A stretch of 33,915 nucleotides of DNA from a virus, in IMG/VR virus record IMGVR_UViG_3300029977_000006, positions 1 to 33,915 of that record. One strand, 5' to 3'. The translations under genes and the position numbers were made by a program. Positions 241 through 11,300 of this stretch are shown in pieces. The notes under the pieces were generated by a model that did not search any database, was not told the origin of the DNA, and saw only the letters and a program-made list of their open reading frames with translations. Every line of letters starts with the position of its first letter. Position 1 is the stretch's first letter.

Positions 241-256
241 TTAAATTCTTTTGCTG

Positions 257-305
257 CTGGTCAATGGCTTACCAGGTTGACCGGTAAAAAATATTCTCTG
301 GTAAG
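257..305 (+). promoter_or_regulatory. candidate H-type pseudoknot in the leader of the amidoligase gene
   Basis: Stem 1 is CTGGTCAA (257-264) with TTGACCGG (277-284): 8 bp, one of them G-U. Eight bases of its loop, CTTACCAG (268-275), are perfectly complementary to CTGGTAAG (298-305), giving stem 2 of 8 bp. The linkers are 3 bases (265-267), 1 base (276) and an A-rich 13 bases (285-297). The structure ends directly before the Shine-Dalgarno (about 307-313) of the ATG at 320. A long-range hairpin using stem 2 alone is an exclusive alternative. The geometry suits a riboswitch or protein-binding translational operator. It matches no riboswitch class I know; preQ1-I has a similar topology but shorter stems. 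Confidence 0.6.
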
Positions 306-319
306 AAGGGGGTGAAATT

Positions 320-1075
320 ATGAAAATAGTTGGAGAAATAAATAAAAACAGGTTTCCAGGTATTGTGAAAAGTGTTGGAGTTGAAATTGAATGTGGAATT
401 TTTAAGAAAAAATTATATGATATTATGGATCATTTTTCTTGTGTGAAAGTCGGAGAGGATGGTTCTGTCTGTGTTGATTGTCCTGATGAATCTGATGATG
501 TGTGGAAAGAGAATGTTGAGATACGTTTTTGGAGTGATAATCTTAATGATTTATTGAAATTTATGAAGTATTGTTGGGATGTCGCTGGCGTTATTCAAAA
601 TGAGAGTTGCGGAAATCATGTCCATGTTCGTTTTCACAATTTTGTTCCATTCTGGTTTTCTCCATTTCCTTATTATTTTCTAAAAATGTATAAAAGAAAG
701 TATGCTGAAAACAGAAAGTATATGTTACGGTTAAGAAATGATTACTCCAAATCGTATAATTACCATAACGAGTTGATAGGTAGAATGTTGAGTGGTAATT
801 GTGATAGTCGTGAGCGTTATAAGTTTGTGAATTATATTTCGTATCCTAAGCATGGGACAATTGAGTTTCGTATTATGCCCTATGCTGAAAACTTTGAGGA
901 ACATAAAAGTCAATTGCTTTTTATTTTAGAAGTAATTGAAAAATGGAGCAAAAGAACAAGGAAACTTTATGAAGAACAATATTTTCTTCCTGGACAAGAG
1001 TTTCTCCAGGAAGAAGATGAAATTATAATAATGGAAGAAGGGGGTAGTAAGGATGAAATACAAATTATTCTTTGA
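320..1075 (+). CDS. amidoligase (COOH-NH2 ligase, glutamine-synthetase-like fold)
   Basis: This 251-residue protein carries the signature of the amidoligase family: GVEIE at residues 20-24 (metal and ATP-binding acidic residues), GEDGS at 45-49, VEIRF at 66-70, CGNHVHV at 97-103 and IEFRIMP at 181-187. Family members are predicted to use ATP to join a carboxylate to an amine, making amide or isopeptide bonds on small molecules or proteins. A GGGGGTG Shine-Dalgarno precedes the ATG and the candidate pseudoknot at 257-305 lies just upstream. The 3' end overlaps the next gene by 23 bases, and a class II glutamine amidotransferase follows one gene later; this is a known pairing that can supply ammonia. 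The substrate is unknown. Two long hairpins (910-939 and 984-1015) lie in its coding sequence. Confidence 0.85.
   Translation: MKIVGEINKNRFPGIVKSVGVEIECGIFKKKLYDIMDHFSCVKVGEDGSVCVDCPDESDDVWKENVEIRFWSDNLNDLLKFMKYCWDVAGVIQNESCGNHVHVRFHNFVPFWFSPFPYYFLKMYKRKYAENRKYMLRLRNDYSKSYNYHNELIGRMLSGNCDSRERYKFVNYISYPKHGTIEFRIMPYAENFEEHKSQLLFILEVIEKWSKRTRKLYEEQYFLPGQEFLQEEDEIIIMEEGGSKDEIQIIL
910..939 (+). other. 12-bp RNA hairpin within the amidoligase gene
   Basis: Bases 910-921 pair with 928-939 around a 6-base loop, with two G-U pairs and no mismatch. It is AT-rich and so weaker than its neighbours. It belongs to the hairpin cluster of the first 3.7 kb. Confidence 0.5.
984..1015 (+). other. perfect 11-bp inverted repeat near the amidoligase 3' end
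   Basis: TTCTTCCTGGA (984-994) and TCCAGGAAGAA (1005-1015) are perfect complements with a 10-base loop. The stem ends about 20 bases before the Shine-Dalgarno of the next gene (ATG at 1053). No T-run follows, so it is not a classical terminator. Confidence 0.7.
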
Positions 1076-1541
1076 CAAAAGTAGTTGCAAGAATTATTTC
1101 GTCCTCAAGTATGAGGACGGAGAGTGGGAACAAGTTAAAAGCAAGTTAGAAGAATTAGGATTAGAGAGAAGGAGAACTGAGAACTTATGGGGTAAAGGAT
1201 TAATGGCAGAATTTTACAAGGAATCCAATGAAGAATTGAAAAGAATGTTAGAATCTTGCGAGTATGTGAATGTTGGAAGAAATGTTTATTATTGTGATGA
1301 TATAAATAGTTCGTTTTATAGCAACGGAAGAGTGAACATCGCAATCTTCCGTGTTGTCCCTGCGAATGGTGAAGTAAAAGCTGAGGTGGATAACTTTTTG
1401 ACTGTAAATGATTTTAGAAAAATCATAATTGGATTAAAGTCGGTATTTCAGATGTTGTTTAATATAGTTACGGAAAAGGAAGTGGAGATAAAGATTGTAA
1501 AGAAGGGGGTGGGGGACTATGTGTCAGATAGCAATATGTAA
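1053..1541 (+). CDS. hypothetical protein between amidoligase and glutamine amidotransferase
   Basis: This 162-residue protein is not recognised. It is charged, with a helical-looking first half (residues 25-70), a beta-like middle and no membrane segment. Its frame overlaps the amidoligase by 23 bases and the amidotransferase by 23 bases, so the three genes are translationally linked; a role in the same pathway is an inference from this. A GGGGGTAGTAAGG sequence precedes the ATG. The coding sequence contains hairpins at 1100-1119 (8 bp, AGTA loop), 1324-1352 (8 bp) and 1408-1426 (8 bp). Confidence 0.75.
   Translation: MKYKLFFDKSSCKNYFVLKYEDGEWEQVKSKLEELGLERRRTENLWGKGLMAEFYKESNEELKRMLESCEYVNVGRNVYYCDDINSSFYSNGRVNIAIFRVVPANGEVKAEVDNFLTVNDFRKIIIGLKSVFQMLFNIVTEKEVEIKIVKKGVGDYVSDSNM
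1100..1119 (+). other. 8-bp hairpin with tetraloop early in the 1053-1541 gene
   Basis: CGTCCTCA (1100-1107) pairs perfectly with TGAGGACG (1112-1119) around the loop AGTA. It lies about 47 bases after the start codon. A weaker 11-base inverted repeat with one mismatch (1062-1072 with 1089-1099) abuts it on the 5' side. Confidence 0.55.
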
Positions 1542-2208
1542 TAGGAAAATAACTAATGAAGAGATAAATAGTTTCTGGAATAGTAATAATGACGGAGCCG
1601 GTGTCATTTACAGATACGCCGGCTTCGTCAAATGGAAGAAGGGGGTTATGAGGAAAGATGATTTAAGGTCGTTTGTTGAAAAATTGAACCCGCCTTATGT
1701 CATTCATTTCCGTGCTGCAACGCATGGAAGTGAATGTCCTGAGCTAACTCATCCATTCCTTGTCTCAATGTCCAATCCTTTAGAAGGAATATTAAAACAA
1801 GGTCAATACTTGCTTATGCACAATGGAGTTGATAGTGATGCAATAAAAATGTTAATGATTGCAATGTTTGCTAAAGGACAGAAATGGAATTTCAGAGAGA
1901 TGTCAGATACTCGTGCGATTGCTATTCTGTTGTCAGTGTTAGGTATTGAAGCTGTAAGTCAATTTTCTGGTAAGTTTGTTATTGTAGACCATAAGTTCAA
2001 CATCAGGACTTATGGTCAATTTACAGAAAAAAATGGCATATTACTGAGCAATGGAACTCAGATGTATATATATGAAAGGTATGACTATGCGACAAGAGAT
2101 TGTATATATAAAAATGAACCTGCTAATTGCCCAACGAAGAACTACAGTAAATGCCCGATGGTATGGAAAAATTGCCCATACACTTATTGGAACAGGGGGG
2201 ATGACTAA
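1519..2208 (+). CDS. class II glutamine amidotransferase (Ntn-hydrolase)
   Basis: The protein is 229 residues and begins Met-Cys, so removal of Met exposes Cys2 as the N-terminal nucleophile of class II glutamine amidotransferases. Further family motifs are DGAGV at 25-29, HFRAATHG at 63-70 (glutamine-binding arginine and Thr-His-Gly), HNG at 101-103 and SDTRA at 129-133. The enzyme releases ammonia from glutamine. There is no fused synthase domain, so the acceptor should be a partner protein; the amidoligase two genes upstream is the obvious candidate. An unusual C-terminal cluster of cysteines (195, 204, 212, 219) could bind metal. A GGGGGTGGGGG Shine-Dalgarno precedes the ATG. Hairpins at 1590-1630, 1701-1736 and 1987-2017 lie inside the gene. 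Confidence 0.88.
   Translation: MCQIAICNRKITNEEINSFWNSNNDGAGVIYRYAGFVKWKKGVMRKDDLRSFVEKLNPPYVIHFRAATHGSECPELTHPFLVSMSNPLEGILKQGQYLLMHNGVDSDAIKMLMIAMFAKGQKWNFREMSDTRAIAILLSVLGIEAVSQFSGKFVIVDHKFNIRTYGQFTEKNGILLSNGTQMYIYERYDYATRDCIYKNEPANCPTKNYSKCPMVWKNCPYTYWNRGDD
1590..1630 (+). other. 12-bp GC-rich hairpin early in the amidotransferase gene
   Basis: TGACGGAGCCGG (1590-1601) pairs with CCGGCTTCGTCA (1619-1630) around a 17-base loop: 12 bp with one G-U pair in the + sense. It lies about 70 bases after the start codon, in an otherwise AT-rich sequence. Confidence 0.7.
1701..1736 (+). other. 15-bp RNA hairpin within the amidotransferase gene
   Basis: CATTCATTTCCGTGC (1701-1715) pairs with GCATGGAAGTGAATG (1722-1736) around a 6-base loop. 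All 15 positions pair, two of them as G-U in the + sense. The DNA encodes the region of the HFRAATHG active-site motif, so the stem coexists with strong coding constraint. Confidence 0.75.
1987..2017 (+). other. perfect 10-bp inverted repeat late in the amidotransferase gene
   Basis: GACCATAAGT (1987-1996) and ACTTATGGTC (2008-2017) are perfect complements with an 11-base loop. A shorter perfect stem, GTATGG/CCATAC (2161-2181), lies near the end of the same gene, before the next Shine-Dalgarno. Confidence 0.65.
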
Positions 2209-2417: not shown

Positions 2418-2890
2418 AAAAGAAAATATATAATCCGTATATATGTGAAATTTGTAAATCATATCGTAGATTGTTGAAATCGTCTCGTTCAAATTATCTC
2501 TGGATTGTCTGTGAAAATTGTGGAGAAAGTGTTAGGTATAAAGATGTTAGAGAAATAAAATCTGGGAATGATAGGAGAAAATGGAAGATAATTATGAAAA
2601 AACAATATTACGGAATAGAAGAAGCAGCAAGAAAACTGGGAATTGAAGTGAAAACATTATACGATTGGGTGCGTAGAGGATACGTGCCCTATCGTTATCT
2701 TAACGATTTGTTGTTATTTGATGATGAAGATTTAGAAATTATAAAATTTTATATGTCATTAAGGCCTAAAAGAAGATGGCTGGATGGATACAAAAAGCGT
2801 ATCCTCCAGTTTATTAAAAAAAGAAGGGGTAAAAATTTTTATGAAAAGGGGGTGATAAAGAATGAGGAAAAAGGAAACCAACAACAATAA
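2414..2890 (+). CDS. zinc-ribbon plus MerR/excisionase-like HTH protein
   Basis: The protein is 158 residues with two parts. Residues 11-36 form a Cys4 zinc ribbon (CEIC at 11-14, CENC at 33-36). Residues 66-111 resemble a MerR/excisionase-type winged helix that reads IEEAARKLGIEVKTLYDWV and continues into RRGYVPYR. It probably binds DNA as a regulator or recombination helper. The ATG overlaps the preceding stop. An in-frame ATG at 2594, directly before the HTH, could give a second, HTH-only product. The coding sequence contains the strong hairpins at 2661-2695 and 2780-2809. Confidence 0.75.
   Translation: MKKKIYNPYICEICKSYRRLLKSSRSNYLWIVCENCGESVRYKDVREIKSGNDRRKWKIIMKKQYYGIEEAARKLGIEVKTLYDWVRRGYVPYRYLNDLLLFDDEDLEIIKFYMSLRPKRRWLDGYKKRILQFIKKRRGKNFYEKGVIKNEEKGNQQQ
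2661..2695 (+). other. 14-bp hairpin encoding the HTH region
   Basis: Bases 2661-2675 (ACGATTGGGTGCGTA) face 2681-2695 (TACGTGCCCTATCGT) across a 5-base loop, giving 14 of 15 positions paired: one T-T mismatch and two G-U pairs in the + sense. It lies about 67 bases after the internal ATG at 2594. Confidence 0.75.
2780..2809 (+). other. 11-bp hairpin with one bulge upstream of the annealing-protein gene
   Basis: CTGGATGGATAC (2780-2791) pairs with GTATCCTCCAG (2799-2809) with a single bulged T and a 7-base A-rich loop, followed by TTTATT. It could act as a weak terminator or as an mRNA processing or stability element. The next Shine-Dalgarno begins about 35 bases downstream. Confidence 0.65.
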
Positions 2891-3653
2891 TAACAACATT
2901 ATCTCTCCTGTGGTAGTAAAACAAGAAGTTGTTGAAAAACCTGTGGAACTCTTCCCTACAAAAAACCCTAATGAAGTTGTAAAAATTGCGAAAAATATTG
3001 CTGACGCTGTAAGTGATATTGTTGAAAAACAAAAACTGTATGATAAAATAAAAGATAAAAAATATGTGAGATGTGAAGGATGGACTACGATGGGGGCAAT
3101 GTTAGGACTATTCCCTCAAATTGTTGAAGTTCGTGAAGAAAAAATTGATGATAAAAATAAGAAATATGTTGCTGTATGTGAGATAAGGACACTTGATGGT
3201 AGGTTAGTATCTCGTGCTGAAAGTGAATGTTCATCTCTTGAAAGGAATAAAGTAGGACAAGAAGATTATGCTCTCCGTTCAATGGCTGAAACTCGTGCTG
3301 TATCAAAAGCGTTCCGTATATGTTTGAGTTGGGTGATGACTCTTGCTGGTTATGAACCTACACCTGCTGAAGAAGTTTCTGAGGAAATGTTGAATAATAA
3401 AGTTATTGAGCAAAAAATTGTTGAAACTCCTGTTGTTGAACAAGTTAATTTAAATGTTGATAACAAATCCAAAAAAATAACTGAAAAACAAAGAAAATTA
3501 TTGTTTGTTCGTTTGAGAGAAGCTGGCATCCCTGAAGAAGTGTTGAAAAAACATATTGAAGTCGCATTTGGTAAAACATCAACTGCTGATTTAAATAATG
3601 AGGAATTTGATGAAATCTTAAAAGAAATAGAAAATTTAAAACGACAGAAGTAG
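2862..3653 (+). CDS. probable single-strand annealing/recombination protein (RecT/Erf/Sak type)
   Basis: This 263-residue protein has a poly-Asn linker at the N-terminus (residues 7-12) and a conserved-looking core (about 40-170) with CEGWTTMGAMLG at 71-82 and RSMAETRAVSKAFR at 139-152, then a C-terminal tail with a helical domain at about 205-262. The core matches phage proteins I recall next to recombination nucleases, but I cannot assign a named subfamily from motifs alone. A Cas4/RecB-type nuclease follows immediately, the usual layout of a two-component annealase plus exonuclease system. A GGGGGTG Shine-Dalgarno precedes the ATG, which overlaps the upstream gene by 29 bases. Confidence 0.6.
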   Translation: MRKKETNNNNNNIISPVVVKQEVVEKPVELFPTKNPNEVVKIAKNIADAVSDIVEKQKLYDKIKDKKYVRCEGWTTMGAMLGLFPQIVEVREEKIDDKNKKYVAVCEIRTLDGRLVSRAESECSSLERNKVGQEDYALRSMAETRAVSKAFRICLSWVMTLAGYEPTPAEEVSEEMLNNKVIEQKIVETPVVEQVNLNVDNKSKKITEKQRKLLFVRLREAGIPEEVLKKHIEVAFGKTSTADLNNEEFDEILKEIENLKRQK

Positions 3654-3664
3654 AAATAAAAATG

Positions 3665-3706
3665 CCAGCGGCAGGGTCTTGGACCCCCCTTCTTCCTTGC
3701 CGCTGG
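3665..3706 (+). promoter_or_regulatory. GC-rich intercistronic hairpin before the nuclease gene
   Basis: CCAGCGGCAGGG (3665-3676) pairs with CCTTGCCGCTGG (3695-3706) over 12 bp with one G-U pair. An inner GGGTC/GACCC stem (3674-3686) is a competing fold. It is the most GC-rich stretch in this part of the genome and fills the gap between the annealing protein and the nuclease, ending 15 bases before the GGAGGAG Shine-Dalgarno. The sequence after it is not a T-run on the + strand, so a translational or mRNA-stability role is more likely than termination. Confidence 0.65.
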
Positions 3707-3730: not shown

Positions 3731-4513
3731 ATGGAAGATATATTAGAACTACAGGATCTACCTTATGGACATGTATCATATTCCCAGGTAAATATGTATA
3801 AAAGATGTCCAATGCAGTGGAAGTTCAGATACCTTGATGGACTTATAATGCCTATCAAAAGTAGTTTAGTTATTGGTCCATCAGTCCACGAAGGGCTTAC
3901 AGAAGGCTTCAACACAAAACTTACCTCTGGTGGAGATGATGTAAAAATAGTTAATCTCATCAAGGAAAAAACTGCTTACGAAGTAGAAAAAATAGTTGCT
4001 GAAAAAGAAATCCAATACGAAGAAGGTGAAACAAAAGAAGTTATAAAAGATGATGCTGTTAAAATGAGTGAAGTATATTACAGAGAAGTTGGTAAAAAAA
4101 TCAAACCAGTAGAAGTTAAAAAACCTTTTGAGATAACATTTAAGAACACTGATTGGAAGCTTGTTGGTGAAATAGATATTGTGACAGATGATTTAATAGA
4201 TTGGAAGACAGGCAGACAAAAACTTAATGAAGAATATATTGTATATGATGAACAGTTAAAGATATACAAAATTGTAGTTCCTAAAAAACCAGTGATACAT
4301 CAGATTGTTAGATATAGAAAACAGGATCCAAAAATATTTATTTACGAAACAGATTATAATGAGAAAGTATTACAAGATACATTGCAAAACATTGCAGCAA
4401 TAGTTCAACTTATGAGAACTGGTATTGTATACAAAAGAAACGATGCCAGGTATTGTTCTTGGTGCGGGTATCGTGATATATGCCAACCACAATTTAATGA
4501 AGGGGGTAAATAA
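3731..4513 (+). CDS. PD-(D/E)XK exonuclease, Cas4/RecB-like with probable Fe-S cluster
   Basis: The 260-residue protein has the order of motifs of Cas4/AddB-type nucleases: Cys26 in YKRCPMQWKFRY, His53 in GPSVHEG, the metal-binding core GEID at 146-149 with D157-W-K159, a Gln175/Tyr179 motif (QLKIYKI), and C-terminal Cys242, Cys245 and Cys251. The four cysteines would hold a 4Fe-4S cluster. It probably resects DNA ends to make single strands for the annealing protein encoded just upstream. A GGAGGAG Shine-Dalgarno precedes the ATG. Confidence 0.85.
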   Translation: MEDILELQDLPYGHVSYSQVNMYKRCPMQWKFRYLDGLIMPIKSSLVIGPSVHEGLTEGFNTKLTSGGDDVKIVNLIKEKTAYEVEKIVAEKEIQYEEGETKEVIKDDAVKMSEVYYREVGKKIKPVEVKKPFEITFKNTDWKLVGEIDIVTDDLIDWKTGRQKLNEEYIVYDEQLKIYKIVVPKKPVIHQIVRYRKQDPKIFIYETDYNEKVLQDTLQNIAAIVQLMRTGIVYKRNDARYCSWCGYRDICQPQFNEGGK

Positions 4514-5792: not shown

Positions 5793-5951
5793 ATGAAAGA
5801 AAAATTATCTATATACATACAAGTTGGTATTTATATAACAATAACAATTTTTGATGAAACAGGAAGTATAGTGTTTTGTGGGATATATGATAACATAAAT
5901 AGAGCAATTAAAGAAGTGAAGAAGATATTGAAAAGAAGGGGGAAGAAATGA
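5793..5951 (+). CDS. hypothetical small protein
   Basis: A 52-residue protein starting MKEKLSIYIQVG. I prefer the ATG at 5793 because GGTAAGGGGT lies just upstream; an in-frame extension to 5754 would overlap the nuclease gene. It looks like a short beta-rich fold ending in a basic helix. The stop overlaps the next start. Confidence 0.5.
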   Translation: MKEKLSIYIQVGIYITITIFDETGSIVFCGIYDNINRAIKEVKKILKRRGKK

Positions 5952-6265
5952 GTTATTGGTTTGAAAGAGAGAGAAAAAGAGTTGGTAAAGAAAGGGATAG
6001 AAGAAGGAAGTTAACAGAAGAAGATAGAGCAATTATAAGGAGATTATATAACCTAGGTATGTCAATAAGAGGTATAGCAAGATTATTTAGTCATAAAACA
6101 ACAAGGCGTAATATTCAGTTTATTCTTTTTCCTGAAAGGCTTAAAAGACAATATTACTATAGAAGGATGAGGAATTGGGATTATGATAGAGAAAAGCATA
6201 AAATATATGTTAGGAGATATAGAAGGCATTTAAAAGAAATTTATGGATTAAGAAAAGGGGATTAA
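5948..6265 (+). CDS. helix-turn-helix DNA-binding protein
   Basis: The 105-residue protein is highly basic. Residues 21-58 form a homeodomain/resolvase-like HTH that reads LTEEDRAIIRRLYNLGMSIR and continues GIARLF, and the chain goes on through FILFPERLKRQ. The C-terminus (YDREKHKIYVRRYRRHLKE) is an arginine/lysine-rich helix. Proteins of this design are common in phages and are probably transcription regulators or nucleoid-like factors. A GGGGGAAGAA sequence precedes the ATG. Confidence 0.7.
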   Translation: MSYWFERERKRVGKERDRRRKLTEEDRAIIRRLYNLGMSIRGIARLFSHKTTRRNIQFILFPERLKRQYYYRRMRNWDYDREKHKIYVRRYRRHLKEIYGLRKGD

Positions 6266-6267
6266 AT

Positions 6268-6519
6268 ATGAAACTAAAAGTATTAAAGATAGCACAACAT
6301 AGAAGTAAGAGAAATCCTAATTATCTTTTTAGTTATGTATTTTTTAAATCTTTAGAAGATGGTAGAAGTTATAAGACATGCATTTCAGAAGAATTTAGAA
6401 ACTATCGTTGGTGGAAAGATATAGAGATAGGTGATATAATAGAAGTTAATAACGAAATGATAAGAGGTAATCTTATAGATGCGGATGCAATACCTAGATA
6501 TTATCGAAAGGGGGTATAA
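6268..6519 (+). CDS. hypothetical protein
   Basis: The 83-residue protein is not recognised. The segment WWKDIEIGDIIEVNN looks like a small beta barrel. It follows the HTH gene after 2 bases, with an AAAAGGGGATT ribosome binding site. Its place suggests membership of the same operon. Confidence 0.6.
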   Translation: MKLKVLKIAQHRSKRNPNYLFSYVFFKSLEDGRSYKTCISEEFRNYRWWKDIEIGDIIEVNNEMIRGNLIDADAIPRYYRKGV

Positions 6520-6520
6520 T

Positions 6521-6670
6521 ATGATAAAATACGATATAAAAGATATAGAGATATTACACAAAATATTTAAGAAATACAGGATTTTAAAAGCGTTATACCC
6601 TATTTTAAGACAATATTTCAATATTAAGAGATCAACATTATACCACAAGTTGAAAAAGAACAAGAATTAA
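6521..6670 (+). CDS. small basic protein, possible HTH
   Basis: A 49-residue protein starting at 6521, after AAAGGGGGTATAAT. The C-terminal half (ILRQYFNIKRSTLYHKLKKN) has the pattern of a Fis/HTH recognition helix. An upstream in-frame start at 6479 is possible but lacks a ribosome binding site. It is the last gene of the + strand module. Its TAA shares the palindrome TTAA with the stop of the opposing gene at 6667-6828. Confidence 0.55.
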   Translation: MIKYDIKDIEILHKIFKKYRILKALYPILRQYFNIKRSTLYHKLKKNKN

Positions 6671-7068: not shown

Positions 7069-8343
7069 TTAAAACCACCATCTCAACTCTTTTAACCTAT
7101 CTATCCTTTTCTTAGCGTGTTTTACCCCATCCCCTACCCTAGCACTCATTGTTGGTAAAAGGATGTTGTCTAAGATGTTTATAGCCTTTTCCTCAGCTTT
7201 GAACATGTCTCTATCATAACTACTAACACATAATATTAAACCATCATCAGTATAAACTTCTAACCCTTTATCTCCTAACCTACAACCTATAGGCCATATA
7301 TGATCCCTATCCTCTGACCTATAAAATATAGGCATACCAGTATATTTCTTAAAAACATTATTCTCATCAGAAGGATATTCAGGTAATACTACATTAACAG
7401 CATAACCATAACCATCTTTCAACGGAACTTTATCTAAACTACCTTCAGCTAACTTAATAAAATACTCACCTATAGGTATATCAAGTAATTCTATAAAAGC
7501 ATACATAAAATTCCATCCTAACCTAGGCGTAAACTCTAATCCATATACACCACTATCATTAACTATACAGTTTATATCTAAAGGTCCAGTATATCTCAAC
7601 TTCTCCATAAGTAAATATATCTTCTTGAAAAATTTCTGCACTATATAAGGCTCTAATTTATCTGATTTAAATATAACACTAGTAGAAGACCCTACAGTAG
7701 GTCCTAAATCATTAACATCTCTCTTCTTAGTCTCAAATGTATATACTATAGGATATAAAGGCTTCCCATTACTAAATTCTATCTCTGAACTTACTTCATA
7801 CCCATCTATCTTCTCTTGTAATACCCATCTCTTATTAGCATACTCTGTAGTAGATACCCAATTTATAAATATATCTAACTCTGTTATATCCCTAGGGATG
7901 AAAGTAAGATAATTAGGAGCATCAAACATAGGTTTTAATACATAAAGCTTATCCCTATGATCACTAATAAAAGATTTTATCTCTCTAATATTTTTAAACT
8001 TATATATCTCTCCAGTTTTTATACCAGCCATCTGCATTATCTTATAACCAAAATCTCTATCATACTCTAACCTATCATTCATCACACCAGCACCTATAAC
8101 CTTATAGCCATCCTTCTTCAACTTATCAGCTATATCACCTTTACCTGAACCATCAAATACTATACAACTAGGCCTATACTTCAACCCTTCATTAATAGTT
8201 TTAACATAATTAACTACACCTTCTAAAGGTCTAAAACTATAAGGACACCAAACATATGTATCTATACCTTCCCTTATCTTAATCTTCCACGCTATAGGTA
8301 TAATACCATAATCTAAACTAACAAATAATATACTACGTCTCAT
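7069..8343 (-). CDS. ATP-grasp ligase, PurD (GAR synthetase)-like
   Basis: The 424-residue protein has an ATP-grasp layout like phosphoribosylamine-glycine ligase. It has a Rossmann-like N-terminus with FDGSGKGD at about 64-71, the lysine of VLKP near 135-138, and QEKIDGYEVSSE near 176-187. FETKKRDVNDLGPTVG (about 203-218) corresponds to the PurD HKR-GPNTGG segment, and LDINC with LEFTPRLG (about 255-276) gives the metal-binding Asp/Glu and Arg. It should form an acyl-phosphate and ligate it to an amine. I chose the second ATG of ATGATG because it leaves 4-5 bases after GGGAGGA. Its start abuts and overlaps the stop of the 1411-residue virion gene, so it is expressed late. It is a candidate partner of the amidoligase and amidotransferase. 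Confidence 0.8.
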   Translation of the reverse strand: MRRSILFVSLDYGIIPIAWKIKIREGIDTYVWCPYSFRPLEGVVNYVKTINEGLKYRPSCIVFDGSGKGDIADKLKKDGYKVIGAGVMNDRLEYDRDFGYKIMQMAGIKTGEIYKFKNIREIKSFISDHRDKLYVLKPMFDAPNYLTFIPRDITELDIFINWVSTTEYANKRWVLQEKIDGYEVSSEIEFSNGKPLYPIVYTFETKKRDVNDLGPTVGSSTSVIFKSDKLEPYIVQKFFKKIYLLMEKLRYTGPLDINCIVNDSGVYGLEFTPRLGWNFMYAFIELLDIPIGEYFIKLAEGSLDKVPLKDGYGYAVNVVLPEYPSDENNVFKKYTGMPIFYRSEDRDHIWPIGCRLGDKGLEVYTDDGLILCVSSYDRDMFKAEEKAINILDNILLPTMSARVGDGVKHAKKRIDRLKELRWWF

Positions 8344-11300
8344 CATTCCTCCCTAATATTGTTTATAAAATCCTGTGTAGCATCAATAATACTACTATCC
8401 GTTATCTGATACCTTTTCCTCATAAATTCAAATAAAGTCCTTAATATGTCCTTCTGATACCTAGCACCTACTAACTTCTTAGCCTCATTCTTTATCTTAG
8501 TCCTTAAAGCTTTTAACTCTTCTTTATTAGGTAAATAAGCATATGCTAACCTTAAATTGTCTAAATAATGAGCATGCAATTCTCTAATTTTATCATTATT
8601 GATTATATCTTCAACCTTATAACCTCTATTCATCAACTTCTGTATCTCAAATAACATCTCTTTATAAAACCTTATCGCAGCATCAGTATACCCCTTATAA
8701 TCTTTCTTCAACTCTTTAGTCGCTATATCTAACTCTCTAAACCTACGTTGTTCTACAGGATAAAAACCTATCATATAAGATATTGTCTCTGCTAAACTAG
8801 TAAAATATTTAACATTATCCTTTTCATCATAAATCCTTAAAACTACATCCGGTCTCACAGTATATACATCTTCAGGTCTCTTACCCTCAAGTAATATACT
8901 TTTAATATCTTCTCTAGCTATAGGACGTGCCTCAGGAACAGGTCCATACTCTAACGCCCTTATACCACGATATATACGTCTCATCGGAGTAGAAAAATTT
9001 GCTATAACACCTATAATCTTACTCTTATCATATGCTATCAACGGCTGTTTATCTATAAATTCATATGTAGCTGATAACAAATTCTTCATTATACCTACAG
9101 CAGGTATCTCAAACTGTATTATACCACCACCACTAAATATACTCATACCTGACTTCTTAATAAAATCTAACGCCTTCTTGTTATCTATACCTAAATTAAC
9201 TATACCCTTATACAAATAATCAAATTCTATACCAAGTGTGAAAAAATTAGCTAAATCTATACCAAGCTGATTTGTAGTATCATAAAATTCATTCGCTATC
9301 AAAATATAAGCAAATAATTTCTCAGGATTTTTCTGTGCCCAATCTATAAATAACTCTACTGTCTTCAAAGGAAAACTATAATATGGTAATAAAGGTCTTA
9401 ATAACGTCTCACTCCATAACTTAGGCATTCCCTTACCATAAATATATTGCGTCCTCTTCATAACTTCACTACCATACTTCACCGCAGCTTCTTCTAAACT
9501 ATAACCTAACTTCAAATACTTTGCTACCTCAGGTATCTTACCACCTTTATCTAACGCCATTAAATAACCAGTAAAATAACTATACCACCTGTTAAATAAT
9601 TCTATCTTACTCATTAAATAAAAAGCACTATCAGATATCTTGTTAAATAACCTACCCTCTACCCTCAACGTCTCTTTCATTGACATAATCTGATGTAAAT
9701 ACGGCATCTTCTCATAAGCACGTTTAAATACAGCATCCTTGTTCAAAGTATGATTTAAAGCTTTTATTAAATACTCTTCTGAACCAGGACCTAAATCTAT
9801 TAACCCTGATATTATCTGTGCACTATTACCTAAAGCAGTCCTTATATTCCAACCTATAGTAGTTAAATACTCAAGAAACGTTATCGTAGAAGATACCCTT
9901 TGTAAACTATCTACAGGTTTATAACCAAACGACTGTTTTAAATACCAATGTAAATAACTTTTAGCTAAAGGATCTTTAATCTTATCTCTTAACGAAAAAT
10001 ATGCTTGTAACACCGGCTGTTCATATATAACCTTATGCGCATTAATAACCATATCATCAAACATTTCTGAAGCACTAAACTTCCAACCAAAATCTGCTAA
10101 CGTCCTCTTCTTCAAATGTGGCATACTAACCGATACAGGCAACCAAGGCGCTAAACTTATTACATCTTTATTCTCTTCATAACCACTTATCAACTTCTTT
10201 AACATAGAATACTCCACCTTCTCCTCTTTAGTTAAACCCCTTAACTGACTTAAAGCCTCTAAATTTACTAACCTTAACTTCATCCTATCTAAATTACTTG
10301 GATTAAAATAATTTATACGCATATAAGCAGCTAACCTATGACCAGGTCCTAAATACGCAGAATTTAAAGTATTATGCGCAGTAGCTAAACTATCTGTCAC
10401 ACTCCTTATAAACTTAAATGGTTCTTCTAATATAGCATATTTATCACCAAAATCTTTAACAACTTCATCCCAAGTCTGATATTTATTCAACAATTTATGC
10501 AATTGATAATCTAACTCACTATGTTTCTTAATACCTAACTTGTTAAATAAAACATTTTTAGCCTCTATCAACTTCTGCGTTTCAGTAGCAGCTTTTGAAG
10601 TCATCACTATATCAAGATTGATTATACGATGTGCTATAGGATCACGCTTAAAATTATACGGAGATATTAAATTATATAAAAATTCTTTAGTAGCAGGATA
10701 TTTCTGTGCATCTTTAATAAAAAACTCTTTCACCTTATTAGGTAATAAATTCCAAAAATAAGCTATTTTCTTATTAGTTATACCTAAATCTTCAGCAGTA
10801 ATATTCTTTAACGGCTTAATCTCTTTCAACATCTCTGTCTTAACCTTCTTCATATGCTCTATATTATACGGATTATATACTTTATAAAAATTCCTAATCA
10901 CAGGACTATCAGGCGGTAATTCAAGATACATACCTACTGTCCTCATACTATCTATCGCTATTTGCCTACCTAATAAATCACCAGCAGTCTTCCCTATAGC
11001 CTTCTTTGACACTTCTTGCAACTTAGCCAACTCTTCTGCTGTCTTAAATCCTGATAACTCTATCAAAAACTTCTCTTCTAAAGAGGTCTTAGCAGAAATT
11101 ATAGCCCTCTTAATACTCTCATATGCAGAAACCTTCTTTAAATCATCAGCAGTAATATTAACAACACCCTCAATTTCCATACCACCTTTTAATATCTTCT
11201 TTATCCTATCATCAATAAAATCATTATACTTCTGTAAAATATCAAGCTGTTTATCAATTATCAAAATTTCTGGAACATCTTTTTTAGCTTTAACCTTTAA

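Follow-up and report, generated by a model that had tools for sequence, protein, structure and literature searches.

The window, by which we mean the whole stretch of DNA analysed here, is the 33,915-base virus contig IMGVR_UViG_3300029977_000006. It belongs to a tailed phage and encodes an N4-gp56-type capsid protein, a terminase and a portal protein. Three of its genes, all on the plus strand, are the subject of this study: A (320-1075, 251 aa), predicted to encode an ATP-dependent carboxylate-amine ligase of the Amidoligase_2 family, X (1053-1541, 162 aa), whose product belongs to no known family and is a candidate partner of the ligase, and G (1519-2208, 229 aa), for a stand-alone class II (Ntn) glutamine amidotransferase (GAT) with Cys2 as nucleophile. 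As the original prediction had it, the three open reading frames overlap end to end, by 23 nt at A/X (1053-1075) and again at X/G (1519-1541). An identical Shine-Dalgarno-like element, AAGGGGGT, is found ahead of the start codons of A, X, and G. The three frames exceed chance length, since the longest stop-free run in 40 dinucleotide-Markov random windows was 141 aa.

Just upstream of the Shine-Dalgarno site of the ligase gene, a putative leader (250-317, plus strand) carries alternative inverted repeats, 250-264/277-291 (arms CTGGTCAA/TTGACCGG) and 268-275/298-305 (arms CTTACCAG/CTGGTAAG), which are mutually exclusive and laid out like an attenuator. A riboswitch was considered and found to be a weak candidate, because the leader folds weakly better than shuffled sequences (z-score -1.8) and has no match in Rfam. 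Elsewhere in the window, a GC-rich 12-nt inverted repeat (CCAGCGGCAGGG/CCTTGCCGCTGG) was observed at 3665-3706, between genes 2862-3653 and 3731-4513.

The amidoligase motifs GVEIE, CGNHVHV, and EFR, already pointed out for A, are indeed present; they correspond to the GxExE, CGxHxH, and ExR motifs, which are invariant over 43 aligned sequences. The A residues lying on invariant columns in these 43 relatives are G20, E22, E24, D47, C97, G98, H100, E182, and R184. The proposed check against Pfam profiles gave a divided answer: A scored 21.0 bits against PF12224 (Amidoligase_2) and 22.5 bits via a six-frame search, on either side of the cut-off of 22, and G stayed under the cut-off of 27 for GATase_6 (PF13522), with 24.7 bits and 25.1 in a second search. 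Since these single-sequence scores are marginal, our family assignments rest on relatives and a structure model and not on Pfam alone. Similarly, scans of IMG/VR by single sequences of A, G or X gave no matches, and alignments were required.

An AlphaFold2 model of A, built on the alignment of 43 relatives, reached a pLDDT of 82.5. When it was compared with the PDB by Foldseek, the top match was 1tt4 (E 6.8e-4, probability 1.00, moderate TM-scores of 0.46/0.36) and 1r8g (YbdK) was matched at E 1.6e-3, while 46 matches at E<=1e-3 were obtained in BFVD, with E-values down to 4e-9, the named ones being nearly all phage amidoligases. A separate profile search of the PDB with A also ranked YbdK and glutamine synthetases at the top, with borderline E-values. 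The YbdK-type glutamate-cysteine ligase family belongs to the glutamine-synthetase superfamily. Judging from the best matches of the model, the fold of A would be of the glutamine-synthetase/GCS2 type and closest to the YbdK-type family, in keeping with the ligase fold that had been anticipated. YbdK (GCS2 family, 1r8g; also 1tt4) is the best match of the model among solved structures, at an identity of about 10-14% and a TM-score of 0.46 or less, and it is not known to work with a GAT. As for G, Cys2 is present as predicted, and C2, R65, T68, H78, N102, G103, and D107 are each shared by at least 94% of 94 relatives; in class II amidotransferases, these positions supply the nucleophile, bind glutamine, and form the oxyanion hole. 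A profile of relatives, of which the G of the window is itself a member, scores G at 145 bits. We regard the enzyme-family identities of A and G as highly probable.

We then looked at the association of the two enzymes across viruses. The IMG/VR scan and its seeds used G only, and the profiles were iterated on the same loci. Among the 80 IMG/VR loci found by G alone, A was located upstream on the same strand in 78, at 100 nt or less in 52, and the two loci without A both lie at a contig start. Of 80 control loci around terminase homologues, one contained G and three contained A, and the sole control locus with G has A directly upstream. These counts (78 of 80 against 1 to 3 of 80) bear out the enzyme identities and the functional pairing proposed earlier, A and G being almost always adjacent. 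In the reverse scan, G was present at 10 of 23 amidoligase loci, some of the other 13 being cut by contig ends. As no GAT was seen near these 13 loci, the ligase may also accept free ammonia or other amines. Other arrangements were also seen: L089 has a short amidoligase gene (5932-6660) with no detected GAT, upstream of an AAA ATPase gene and a VWA-like domain gene (7386-9805), and both L042 (4691-5863, 6986-8572) and L009 (2526-4328, 4385-5986) have two tandem or flanking amidoligase genes with a single GAT.

Over 55 groups, the distances of A and G are correlated (Mantel r 0.55, 0 of 2000 permutations), and the pair therefore tends to be co-inherited. No third gene family was common to the 60 pair groups, defined by a GAT identity below 70%, and gamma-glutamyl cyclotransferase (PF06094) was absent from 50 amidoligase-carrying virus records, 43 of which have the pair, so the pair is able to act without those partners. 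No A-G gene fusions were found. Altogether, these results indicate that A and G form a genuine unit that recurs in phages, and the two probably function together.

A pair of this type has already been published, since the isolate phages LUZ24 (gp18-gp19), Marvin (gp105-gp106), Salgado (gp98-gp99), and MEP402 (gp06-gp07) carry it, and it is likewise annotated or recognisable in ctgrD200 and a Christensenellales phage. What is new here is X and the three-gene form. Mycobacteriophage Marvin has, as in the window, an amidoligase (gp105, 155 bits with the profile built here) and then a class II GAT (gp106, 108 bits), but gp105 has an N-terminal zinc-ribbon region and there is no X. Marvin gp105 (L116 1560-2921) is annotated as a 'glutamine amidotransferase domain protein' and matches the amidoligase and not the GAT profile, pointing to a probable misannotation, which is also likely for a BFVD entry of 453 aa from the related phage Tesla. 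The same order of amidoligase and class II GAT is seen in Arthrobacter phage Salgado (gp97-gp99), where, unlike in the window, a gamma-glutamyl cyclotransferase gene is directly upstream of the pair and X is missing. In Methylophilales phage MEP402, the amidoligase and GAT genes overlap as they do here, but the amidoligase is of 550 aa and X is again missing. Finally, LUZ24-like phages (LUZ24 gp16-gp22) have Amidoligase_2 followed by a class II GAT within a larger cassette that adds a COOH-NH2 ligase, an ATP-grasp protein, and AIG2/GGCT. The LUZ24 GAT is of 510 aa, compared with 229 aa for G, and the middle gene gp17 encodes a 189-aa protein (phrog_4877). The idea that X is LUZ24 gp17 was rejected, as X gave no match in the PHROG searches, phrog_4877 included.

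X itself had no match in Pfam, PHROG, NCBIfam or the PDB. One homologue was detected, at L088 5507-5962 (E=3.8e-20, 35% identity), on IMG/VR contig 3300009503_000033, from a metagenome mentioned in the published correction to a study of hydrothermal sediment. The gene order there is X-A-G, compared with A-X-G in the window, with the X homologue 2 nt upstream of A, and both operons are tightly packed. X was missing from 49 other virus records searched, 48 of which carry the pair; 48 of the 49 other pair-carrying records are thus without X. It was not found in a search of phages, in relatives of the phage of the window, or in GTDB genomes at the sensitivity of that search. An AlphaFold2 model of X from two sequences had a pLDDT of 38.6, too low to be of use. 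The C-terminus of X is not conserved, the homologue being without the last ~14 residues, and neither protein ends in Glu or Gln. Both ligases associated with X are short (251 and 252 aa). Because it is kept in the operon, shuffled in order, and missing from nearly all other pair records, X appears to be a partner of A specific to this lineage. The original prediction had made it the carrier or substrate; its scarcity, its unconserved C-terminus, and its position upstream of the ligase gene in the homologous operon speak against this, the last fitting a ligase partner better. We give an even chance to X being a docking or regulatory partner of the ligase rather than its substrate.

Many paired amidoligases carry N-terminal extensions of 50-400 residues, often resembling CxxC zinc ribbons or helix-turn-helix domains, for which Pfam support is weak. 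A is without the extension seen in most of its phage relatives, and X as a detached version of such an extension was rejected by hhalign. A relative of the phage of the window (L204/L142; terminase identity 39%, ATP-grasp homologue present) has an unrelated-looking 159-aa protein encoded directly upstream of an amidoligase as short as A. This protein is similar in sequence to the C-terminal part of the protein encoded upstream of the L105 amidoligase (E 0.002) and possibly to the N-terminus of the L110 amidoligase itself (E 0.05-0.2), which makes plausible the notion of a small partner that would sometimes be fused to the ligase. The small family beside or perhaps fused to amidoligases (L204 944-1423, L105 3942-5804, L110 5125-6414) shares the motif RTEEGLxxxLRSExL. 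A by-eye idea that X is homologous to the 159-aa protein was not significant (-0.6 bits, hhalign probability <1%).

A further candidate member of the module was an ATP-grasp protein of 425 aa resembling PurD/GARS (7069-8346, minus strand; Pfam GARS_A E 2e-8). Its gene ends the late operon, 5 kb from the pair, with a 4-nt overlap with the gene of a 1411-aa protein. Homologues (27-37% identity) were found in the related phages G059, G069, and G071, the last having both ATP-grasp and amidoligase. No ATP-grasp of this type turned up in a search of 50 other virus records with an amidoligase, 49 of which carry the pair, while G059 and G069 have it with no amidoligase match, and it was therefore excluded from the module.

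The original prediction took the locus for a pathway that would alter something during infection; the pair itself had already been described in phages. G would hydrolyse glutamine by means of Cys2 and pass ammonia, or less likely glutamate, to A, which would activate a carboxylate as an acyl-phosphate using ATP and then form the amide. X would bind A and serve in target docking or regulation, as the zinc-ribbon or helix-turn-helix-like extensions may do in other phage amidoligases, and the target would most plausibly be a peptide of the cell wall or a carboxylate on a protein. We consider that such ammonia-fed amidation by A and G may well be right, at roughly even odds. MurT-GatD of Staphylococcus aureus is comparable in that a glutaminase gives ammonia to an ATP-dependent amide synthase, as described in PMC3267633 and PMC5871853. 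Its families differ from those of A and G on both sides (a Mur ligase and a class I GAT), and the likeness is an analogy only.

Four other explanations were weighed against this one. The pair could be a reduced form of the peptidoglycan-modification cassette of LUZ24, phiEco32, and RIO-1, amidating or peptide-linking stem peptides against superinfection. A cell-wall change with this effect was predicted for related phage cassettes (PMC5498523, PMC10580990, the latter citing Iyer et al. 2009 for the proposal), and in LUZ24 the COOH-NH2 ligase, amidoligase, GAT, ATP-grasp, and cyclotransferase genes stand together in one block. In the window, however, no PF06094 cyclotransferase (AIG2/GGCT) was found although the controls were positive, and the ATP-grasp gene lies outside the block, on the opposite strand as part of the late operon; PF14395 (COOH-NH2 ligase) had no match in the window either, but its control matched nowhere. 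This explanation is a possibility that we put below an even chance. We find it unlikely that the pair is an auxiliary metabolic route for nitrogen or glutamate, moving amide nitrogen between small molecules and helping the host, since class II GATs are already in cells (the family was matched in 14 of 14 control genomes) and CxxC-rich N-terminal extensions, present on many paired amidoligases, would be odd for a metabolite enzyme. It is in favor of such a route that YbdK-type ligases use glutamate and small amines as substrates. Moreover, a role in nitrogen metabolism has been suggested for a planctomycete phage that encodes an amidoligase, a GAT, a glutathione synthase, and a cyclotransferase (PMC10945688). 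In the literature, we found no experiment deciding between the cell-wall and the nitrogen-metabolism proposals, nor a proven target of the pair.

In a Pup-like cycle, X would be a carrier or substrate tagged by the ligase, and the Ntn enzyme would remove the tag. PafA is likewise glutamine-synthetase-like, and X lies between both enzyme genes in the window and is retained in a second operon. Nevertheless, the distribution and the C-termini of X described above count against its being a substrate, as do the residues of the class II GAT glutamine site present in G; we consider this cycle improbable. Just as improbable, in our opinion, is the modification of a nucleic-acid base or of a transcription or translation component instead of a peptide or metabolite: zinc-ribbon and helix-turn-helix-like segments on many paired amidoligases would suit it, but A is without such a segment and no DNA-modification genes cluster with the pair over the 60 groups.

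Contigs of close relatives of the phage (terminase identities of 98% and 94%) were found in metagenome 3300033894 and in metagenome 3300031463, which belongs to a Yellowstone study (PMC10033731), and metagenome 3300020139, the source of L142, is listed as GBS in a geothermal study (PMC9723716). Because of these Yellowstone and geothermal settings, a hot-spring host is likely and the phage is apparently thermophilic. If the host were an archaeon, action on the cell wall would need a different substrate. The locus is best explained as a version, in this apparently thermophilic phage, of the known module of Amidoligase_2 and class II GAT, enlarged by the lineage-specific third gene X; the explanation as a whole, with ammonia-fed amidation and a docking or regulatory X, we hold at about even odds.

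Amidoligase-GAT pairs occur widely in phages, with 60 groups found here, and their near-perfect linkage with no other common gene suggests a working core made up of just these two proteins, so that the biochemistry comes down to an assay of the two. Homologues of the pair tractable in the laboratory are available in M. smegmatis and Arthrobacter phages, and the apparently thermophilic phage studied here offers a minimal ligase of 251 aa and, as a separate protein, its candidate partner, a form that would be handy for structure work. More speculatively, and with the odds against it, X and the 159-aa protein of L204 may belong to a class of dedicated subunits that recruit the amidoligase, interchangeable with the N-terminal extensions of other phage amidoligases, whose swapping would retarget the amidating core. 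If true, module swapping would point one conserved ammonia-fed core at different host macromolecules.
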